Shown here: piece after piece, positions 17,116-18,916 of the stretch
How the letters are laid out: every line of letters begins with the position of its first letter
Numbering within the stretch: the stretch's first letter is position 1
Notes under the pieces: model-generated
What the model was told of the DNA's origin: nothing
Databases searched by the model: none
The model's input: the letters and a program-made list of their open reading frames with translations, nothing else
Assembly (NCBI GenBank): GCA_016875915.1
Contig: VGOM01000013.1
Span: 1 to 52,664 of the forward strand
DNA from: Chloroflexota bacterium
GTDB lineage: Bacteria > Chloroflexota > Dehalococcoidia > UBA2247 > RBG-13-53-26
DNA: 52,664 nt
Direction: 5' to 3'
Translations under genes and position numbers: made by a program

Positions 17116-17379
17116 CGCGTCCCCCCTTTGTCGGCCGCCTGCATCAAGATGCTGCGGCTTCAGCCCGGCTGTCACCAGGCTCGCCCCCGCCCCTCTCGCT
17201 CCCGGAGGCGCACCTCGGGCACATTATAGCACAGCGTCCCAAACATGCACGCGCACCCCTGTGGCTTGCCCGCTGCTTGACAATCGTGCGGGGCACAGCC
17301 CCACAGATGCCAAGCAGGCGTGATGAAGCCGTCTGCGGGGTCACTGCGGAAGGGATTGGAGGGGTCCGGCAGCGCGGGA

Positions 17380-17856
17380 CTACTGGCTCTGCGGCAGTCG
17401 TGTCCGCCGTGCCCGTCTTCTCAGGATCACCCCGAGGTAGGTCAACCCCACGGCTGCCAGGAGCACTCCAACCCCGATGCCCGCCCAGGCCCGGGCTGGT
17501 AATCCCTGGTCCTTTTTGAAGACGGCGCTCACGGACAGGCTCTGGGTGATGACGATTTCGTATGGATTGATGTCGCTTTCGTCGTTCCCTGCAAGGTCGC
17601 CTGCCCATTCCACGAAAACGTATCTCTTGTCCGGGATGGCGGTCAGCGTCACCACCGTCCCCGCCCGGTACCCGTCGCTGCATGGCTCAGCCGGATCGGC
17701 GGTGACTGAGCCACCAGTGGAGCTGACGACCGTCAGCTTGAGGTAGGTTCCCGGTCAGGCGGCGCGAGTGAGCTTCGGCGGCGGCAGCAGCGCCGCCGCC
17801 AGCGACATCAAGATAGCGGTCACCAACAGCGCTACTCTGACCTTCTGGTTCTTCAT
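17380..17856 (-). CDS. Exported InlB-type repeat protein with in-frame UGA (candidate selenoprotein 1)
   Basis: From ATG 17856 (GGGAAGAGG just upstream) the frame encodes a signal peptide (MKNQKVRVALLVTAIL, then a hydrophobic stretch to LTRAA, residues 1-33). A TGA is codon 34 (17755-17757). The same frame continues without any other stop: PGTYLKLTVVSSTGGSV, the divergent InlB B-repeat core ending RYVFVEWAGDLAG, a TM segment (GIGVGVLLAAVGLTYLGVIL) and a basic tail. If UGA is read through, the protein is 158 residues. A perfect hairpin with a GGUC loop core lies 17 nt after the UGA (17722-17737). If UGA is a true stop, this is a pseudogene. It follows its paralogue by 58 nt and shows the same arrangement. 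Confidence 0.6.
17722..17737 (-). promoter_or_regulatory. SECIS-like hairpin of candidate selenoprotein 1
   Basis: GCUGAC-GGUC-GUCAGC on the minus strand, a perfect 6-bp stem 17 nt after the UGA, within the coding frame. It is identical to the hairpin of the neighbouring paralogue at 18680-18695. The loop core GGUC is also that of the E. coli fdhF SECIS (AGGUCU). Confidence 0.5.
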
Positions 17857-17914
17857 CCTCTTCCCTCACCTAATGTACCGCCGCCGATTTGACGCAGCGT
17901 TAGCCAGTGGCGGT

Positions 17915-18802
17915 TCAGCCCTTCCGCAGTTCGCCGCGGACGTACCAGATGGCCAGGACAGCCAGCAGCAGTCCAGCGATTCCCACCCCCACCCACCTCC
18001 AGGGGAACTCCCTCGGCTTGGCGAAATGGGCGGTTATGGTCACGAGGCCTTCAACCGTGATGGATTCCTGGGTCTCGCTGCCGGACAGGTCGCCGCTCCA
18101 GTGATCGAACTTGTAGCCATCTGCGGCCACTGCCGTCGCAGTCACGGCAGTCCCCGCCGCGTAGCCGTCGGCTGGCTGTTCCGGGGCTAGGCTCACTGTG
18201 CCGCCCCCCGATGGACTGCGGACTACCTCAACTTTGGGATTGAAGACGGCGACGATGGACTGATTCCCGCTGATGGCTATCAGTGCCGGGTTGACACTCC
18301 CCGCCAGCCCGCCCTCCCAGTGGCTGAACAGATAGCCCGGGGCGGCCGCTGGGGTCAGCGTGACGTTGTCTCCCACCGCATATCCGTCGGGAGGCTGGGG
18401 TGGTGACAAGGTCACTGTGCCGCTGCCTGGGGCAGCCACGTTCACTACGAGGCTGCAGCACGACCCCGATGGGACGAAGTAGGCTGTCAGCGTCTTGTCG
18501 GTGTCCATCACCACAAAGGCGATGTAGCCATCCGAGCTACTGAAATCGCCCACCCAACGGTCGAACTCAAACCCCGGTGAGGCCGTGGCCACGACTGTTA
18601 CGAGCTTGCCCGGCTCGTACAGGTTCTCCGAGTTCGTGGGTGCCGGCTCAAAGATGAACGCCCCGGCACCTTCAGGCGAGCTGACGACCGTCAGCTTCTC
18701 TGTGCATCAAGCAGCCCGCGCCGGGCCTTCAGCCGGCCATGCCACCAGTGCCACTGAAACCACGAGTGCCAGGACAGACCACAGAACAGACCGGTTGAGC
18801 AT
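17915..18802 (-). CDS. Exported InlB-type repeat protein with in-frame UGA (candidate selenoprotein 2)
   Basis: From ATG 18802 (alternatives 18820 and 18823 in frame) the frame encodes a signal peptide (MLNRSVLWSVLALVVSVALV to GPARAA, residues 1-31), then TGA as codon 32 (18707-18709), then Cys. The same open frame continues through three divergent InlB B-repeats (FDRWVGDF, FSHWEGGL, FDHWSGDL) to a C-terminal TM segment (WVGVGIAGLLLAVLAIWYV) and a basic tail. Read through, it has 295 residues. The UGA-Cys pair aligns with the Cys-Cys that opens the second repeat (GSCCSLVVNV). The SECIS-like hairpin starts 11 nt after the UGA. Type I membrane topology with an extracytoplasmic repeat region is expected. 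Confidence 0.6.
18680..18695 (-). promoter_or_regulatory. SECIS-like hairpin of candidate selenoprotein 2
   Basis: GCUGAC-GGUC-GUCAGC, perfect 6-bp stem, 11 nt after the UGA. Counting the U of UGA as 1, the GGUC loop occupies 21-24. In E. coli fdhF the critical loop G and U are 23 and 24. The 20 nt at 18678-18697 are identical to 17720-17739 while flanks are diverged. Confidence 0.55.
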
Positions 18803-18865
18803 CGCAGTACCGCGCTCCATCATGTGGCGCCACTCTATCATTCGTGGCCTCGTTGTCTCAACTCC

Positions 18866-18896
18866 GTGACGTCCCGCACTTGATGCGGGATCCAGA
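18866..18896. repeat. Dispersed palindromic repeat (CCCGCACTTGATGCGGG)
   Basis: A single copy of the palindrome found in the 219-bp tandem units at 3680-4117, followed by the same ATCCAG. It lies between the InlB-type genes and the next small gene and could fold as a 6-bp stem hairpin, like REP elements. Confidence 0.65.
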
Positions 18897-18916
18897 CTCC
18901 AGGGGGTCCCCGAACC

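Follow-up and report, generated by a model that had tools for sequence, protein, structure and literature searches.

Predicted selenocysteine-tipped surface stalk proteins built from InlB B-repeats and encoded by two neighbouring bacterial genes

Bacterial selenoproteins have been catalogued in 119 families and subfamilies (PMC13188914), which have an in-frame UGA with a downstream bacterial SECIS-type hairpin, homologues with Cys in place of Sec and, in part of the members, redox-type motifs such as UxxC or UxC. The limits given for the hairpin in the same work are a loop of 3-9 nt, a stem of 4-16 bp, a G in the first two loop positions, 16-37 nt from UGA to loop and an energy of <= -7.5 kcal/mol. 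Most characterised members have a thioredoxin-like fold, and the catalogue lists no family with InlB B-repeats (PF18998, Flg_new_2). Nor did we find such a selenoprotein among the nine new families of PMC12013277, in PMC9312934, PMC4959059 or PMC5736913, or in literature searches limited to open-access work, such that an earlier description cannot be excluded. Here, we describe two adjacent genes in a 52,664-nucleotide stretch of DNA (the window; contig VGOM01000013.1 of assembly GCA_016875915.1, from a Chloroflexota bacterium, the group being probably Dehalococcoidia) which, in contrast to those families, carry the UGA at the N-terminal end of an exported beta-repeat stalk, and which are strongly supported by comparison, although not shown chemically, to encode selenoproteins. 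The parts of the locus are as follows:

17380..17856, minus strand: gene 1, exported, membrane-anchored InlB-repeat protein with one in-frame UGA (158 aa)
17758..17856, minus strand: gene 1 signal peptide region (MKNQ...LTRAA)
17755..17757, minus strand: gene 1 UGA, read as selenocysteine
17722..17737, minus strand: gene 1 SECIS-type hairpin, loop GGUC, 23 nt from UGA to loop
17509..17739, minus strand: gene 1 InlB B-repeat (PF18998), its first strand coded by the hairpin
17422..17487, minus strand: gene 1 C-terminal hydrophobic helix before a basic tail (bounds approximate, counted by eye)
17915..18802, minus strand: gene 2, exported, membrane-anchored protein with three InlB B-repeats and one in-frame UGA, the terminal stop also being UGA
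18710..18802, minus strand: gene 2 signal peptide region (MLNR...ARAA)
18707..18709, minus strand: gene 2 UGA, read as selenocysteine, the next residue being Cys
18680..18695, minus strand: gene 2 SECIS-type hairpin, loop GGUC, 17 nt from UGA to loop
18017..18631, minus strand: gene 2 InlB B-repeats (18470-18631, 18236-18448, 18017-18217)
17939..18001, minus strand: gene 2 C-terminal hydrophobic helix before a basic tail (bounds approximate, counted by eye)

With TGA read as a residue, each frame is open from a start codon to its own terminal stop, gene 1 reading MKNQKVRVALLVTAILMSLAAALLPPPKLTRAA-U-PGTYLKLTVVSS... and gene 2 reading MLNRSVLWSVLALVVSVALVAWPAEGPARAA-U-CTEKLTVVSS..., so that both contain ...RAA-U-.... 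The 16-nt hairpin GCTGACGGTCGTCAGC begins 17 and 11 nt after the respective UGA, within a shared 20 nt, AAGCTGACGGTCGTCAGCTC. A sequence-only reading of the locus had reported these frames, spacings and shared sequence, and had inferred that UGA encodes selenocysteine next to the mature N-terminus of two membrane-anchored surface proteins; the observation is exact, and the interpretation is supported by the analyses below. The repeats score well above the Pfam gathering cut-off (50.9, 103.7 and 123.3 bits against 23.6), and no thioredoxin-like domain was matched. We note, however, that the signal peptides rest on a hydrophobic-core score and on a modelled N-terminal helix for the third copy of the gene described below. 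Evaluated by coding the published limits of bSECISearch, both hairpins comply with the bacterial SECIS model, with a 4-nt loop, a 7-bp stem, 23 and 17 nt from UGA to loop and an energy of -9.7 kcal/mol. The apical loop GGUC, and AGGUCC in several relatives, resembles what is probably the AGGUCU loop of the E. coli fdhF SECIS at a similar distance from the UGA, although the stem sequences differ and the hairpin here codes the first strand of the repeat or a linker. A scan of positions 17300-18900 against Rfam gave no match at E <= 1.

The genome containing the window (2.16 Mb in 115 contigs, 93% complete; G000 below, the window being its contig C13) encodes tRNA-Sec (C26:17149-17241, 77.8 bits, anticodon tca), SelB, SelD and, about 3.2 kb beyond SelD on contig C6, SelA, the genes between them appearing to be a cysteine desulfurase, YedF and YedE. 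In-frame UGA is furthermore found in SelD (GAG-U-ASKLGPGDL; fetched stretch L025 near 7310, contig C6) and in FdhA (HQARI-U-HSPT; L026:2334, contig C26), in each case at what appears to be the canonical Sec site, with the table-11 ORF of SelD starting downstream of the UGA. The 16-nt hairpin occurs exactly three times in the genome, every other site found with up to 2 mismatches having two mismatches, and the third copy lies in a gene that starts about 2 kb downstream of tRNA-Sec and again reads signal peptide - U - PSCYDKLTVVS - repeats - hydrophobic tail. A genome-wide search for PF18998 found 7 repeats, all in these three genes, such that 3 of 3 carry the UGA. To assess whether the arrangement exceeds chance, we sought TGA-N6-24-CTGACGGTCGTCAG in 393 genomes of the class with one central base left free, obtaining 14 matches, of which the 10 with this exact core are all genes of this family with in-frame spacing (12 or 18 nt), while the other 4 carry a different base there.

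A search of 60 genomes with the third gene (gene 3) gave long hits with one TGA inside in six further genomes of the same family as G000 (family f1), although in G001 the hit also runs over the terminal TAG; with paralogues, this makes 11 intact genes in 7 genomes plus one degenerate copy (G003:C175, L066:1376), in which the UGA is kept but two TAG codons follow and the hairpin loop is GGCC instead of GGUC. Profile searches covered 393 genomes of the class, 400 of the phylum, 81 relatives of genome G340 and 156 genomes of one order. In all, 46 genes in 28 genomes, window genes included, have TGA at this point, whereas in the listed rows of the four searches no TAA was counted and the only TAG was the extra one of G003:C175. 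The search of the phylum listed no UGA member besides those of G000, but its list shows only two genomes of family f1, G000 and G007, so it says little. Of 13 non-UGA loci fetched subsequently (L250-L262), four, in genomes G782, G768, G355 and G781, have Cys at the column behind the same signal-peptide end (PVEAG-C-SC, KPVEAG-C-PC, TVEAG-C-PC and VGAAG-C-CG), while of the other nine, L254 is lipoprotein-like, L261 has a Cys behind a different N-terminus, and seven show no equivalent residue or no N-terminal hit. Non-UGA loci read earlier were mostly lipobox-type lipoproteins, and the other exported PF18998 members examined have a lipobox-type Cys or no Cys/Sec N-terminus, and no UGA.

The hairpin is under selection at the RNA level. 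Among 10 family-f1 genes (leaving out the near-identical G002b and the degenerate G003:C175), codon pairs for the same residue are identical in 191/207 cases in the five hairpin codons and in 1050/2581 elsewhere, or 201/236 against 1273/3149 with G340 added. In G009, an inner A-U pair is G-C, which changes Thr to Ala and Val to Ala together, and in G790 against G789 the closing C-G is U-A, which changes Thr to Ile and Val to Ile together. In 12 family-f1 sequences, 4 of 8 pairs have a two-sided change, which 1/500 shuffles reach, while 35/500 reach the paired-cell percentage, 12/500 the covariation score, 52/500 the changed cells and 162/500 the pair types; the two outermost of these pairs are, however, unpaired in 10 and 7 of 12 sequences. 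In the branch with a 7-nt loop (14 distinct sequences), 4 of 7 pairs and 10 cells have two-sided changes, with 0/500 shuffles reaching the paired cells, the changed cells or the covariation score, 16/500 the number of pairs and 492/500 the pair types, and with the outermost pair unpaired in 7 of 14. We note that the shuffles do not remove relatedness.

Over all 46 genes, the summed energy of the best SECIS-type hairpin is -371.0 kcal/mol, compared to a mean of -107.2 and a minimum of -156.6 in 200 synonymous redraws, and 29 of 46 genes reach -7.5 kcal/mol, compared to a redraw mean of 3.3 and maximum of 9. The four Cys genes give -7.4 (37/200 redraws as good), -2.3 (8/200), and no hairpin twice. 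Not all members are convincing individually: 17 of 46 miss -7.5, among them G844b, which has essentially no hairpin (-0.1), G843c and G773b (-3.5), G838b (-3.6) and G841a (-3.9), and in G004 another hairpin was preferred to the GGTC one. Similarly, single-gene synonymous redraws with window codon usage were often unremarkable (stem length matched in 225 to 2222 of 5000 redraws, fold energy in 19 to 243 of 1000); the strength lies in the joint tests. In members of G777, G842, G844, G841, G843 and G773, the hairpin lies in a linker between U and the first strand, in several as GGTCGTC-AGGTCC-GACGACC, so it is not a by-product of the LTVVS peptide.

The family is also linked to the Sec system. 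tRNA-Sec (over 60 bits) was found in 8 of 10 family-f1 genomes and SelB over cut-off in 9 of 11 genomes, and each of the eight UGA-bearing genomes in that set (G000-G004, G008, G009 and G340, the last examined for SelB only) has at least one of the two. tRNA-Sec was not found in G001 and G003 (68% and 72% complete), and SelB was not found in G002 (63%) and not over cut-off in G008 (85%), while G005, G006 and G007 of the same family have the machinery and no UGA member was found in them. In G841, G773 and G843, a UGA gene starts about 0.6 kb from selA in opposite orientation, with selB beyond it in G841 and G773 (the G843 stretch ends inside selA); in G843, a 170-aa ORF that resembles an Rrf2-type regulator by eye (L301:8409-8921) lies between. 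In G842, a UGA gene lies about 1.7 kb from selD, with selA and selB beyond.

Taken together, we consider with high confidence that SelB with Sec-tRNA reads the UGA just behind the signal peptide in both genes, directed by the hairpin that begins 11-17 nt downstream, although there is no protein evidence of selenium and the support is comparative. Export, cleavage and topology are inferred from sequence: the pre-protein would be exported and cut at or one to two residues before Sec, leaving a selenol at or near the mature N-terminus, at the far end of a stalk of InlB B-repeats held in the membrane by a C-terminal helix with a basic tail. Two refinements to the sequence-only reading follow. A Cys within three residues after U occurs in only 18 of 46 genes, so a U-x-x-C pair does not define the family, and by a simple AxA rule Sec falls at predicted mature position +1 or +2 in 33 of 46, with no site called in 10. 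The AlphaFold model of gene 3 (mean pLDDT 85.5, pTM 0.60) has an N-terminal helix, a low-confidence stretch at 24-35, a short turn at the UxxC, many beta-strands and a terminal helix at 276-309, and Foldseek against PDB gave only weak matches to strings of small beta domains.

The role of these proteins is inferred with far less certainty. We tentatively hypothesize a large family of "display" selenoproteins, in which a tethered, outward-facing selenol on a stalk without a catalytic domain, in some members with a nearby Cys, is itself the working part, exchanging electrons with thiols or capturing soft metal(loid)s outside the membrane, and is possibly regenerated by ArsG/DsbD-type electron conduits or a C-GCAxxG-C-C partner. 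This rests on the neighbours in other branches, as read from the fetched stretches. In 8 of the 10 genomes of another family, f89, with a UGA gene, a gene of the C-GCAxxG-C-C redox family (PF09719/TIGR01909), which is a neighbour and not a homologue of the UGA gene, stands directly upstream on the same strand (L269:4488-4877 and equivalents in L263, L264, L267, L268, L272, L290 and L291), in five overlapping or within a few bases; its best NCBIfam match is a fusion selenoprotein model (NF045501, HUGP/GUXX-star), below cut-off. In G777, G773 and G844, an ArsG-type, DsbD-like membrane protein is the upstream neighbour, and in G841 and G843 it lies in the same cluster. ArsR-like and ArsP_1-type genes accompany it in G773, G841, G843 and G844; in the G841/G844 branch (L297:1923-4568, L302:3212-7509), the clustered genes include ArsG (NF040495, over cut-off), an ArsP_1-type permease and DGC-domain genes and, in L302, from G844, an ArsF-type gene. 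Such neighbours are not found around the window genes; those of the family-f1 genes differ, appearing to be formate dehydrogenase, Tat and tRNA-Sec in G000, and CinA-like and beta-helix proteins in others. The latter include a large exported protein resembling a parallel beta-helix, with a similar C-terminal hydrophobic tail, beside the UGA gene in G008 (L287:3246-5159) and equivalents in G001, G003 and G009, with no UGA seen in the G008 copy.

Of the alternatives, the one that survives best accepts Sec decoding but takes the proteins to be adhesion or structural stalks in which Sec forms a diselenide or selenenylsulfide cross-link rather than a redox or metal site. This remains possible, if not favoured, in view of the non-enzymatic repeat architecture, the absence of a partner Cys within three residues in 28 of 46 genes and the tandem or multiple copies in several genomes, although the neighbouring redox and metal(loid) genes in two branches speak against it. 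It is unlikely that Sec takes the place of the lipobox Cys to give seleno-lipoproteins lipidated at Sec: several other exported InlB-repeat proteins of the class that match the profile do have a lipobox-like Cys at about this place, but neither window gene and only 3 of 46 (G758, G793 and G796) match even a lax lipobox rule, AxA-type sites fit 36 of 46, and a lipid anchor would make the C-terminal hydrophobic helix with its basic tail redundant. It is very unlikely that the UGA is a true stop in decayed genes, or between a short signal peptide and a separately initiated repeat protein, with the shared hairpin a relic of gene duplication. Standard table-11 ORFs do start downstream of the UGA, inside the repeats, and G003:C175 is really degenerate, but the frame is kept through UGA in the 46 genes, Cys replaces UGA in four homologues, and the synonymous sites of the hairpin are constrained while its stems covary, so these are not pseudogenes. 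Finally, readthrough as another amino acid, such as Trp, by a suppressor or by stimulation from the hairpin (which could in principle occur) can be all but dismissed, as Cys, not Trp, stands at the column in the homologues, gene 2 and G002b end in UGA themselves, Sec machinery co-occurs and is linked, and the hairpins fit the bacterial SECIS model. One tRNA-Trp gene in the window has the ordinary anticodon cca.

Ten members scanned against NCBIfam passed no selenoprotein model, with only the repeat model TIGR02543 above cut-off, in 7 of 10. The genes belong to an apparently undescribed selenoprotein family, as judged by comparison, with up to four fetched copies per genome (G844, G841). The standard table-11 ORFs of the three genes in this genome start inside the repeats, so ordinary annotation would cut off the signal peptide and Sec and hide the family. 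The SECIS moves between the first beta-strand and a linker and keeps a GGUC-like loop in many members, making the family a natural data set for SECIS rules. With Sec spent on an exported stalk with no enzyme-like domain, the family bears on what Sec is for outside oxidoreductase active sites.
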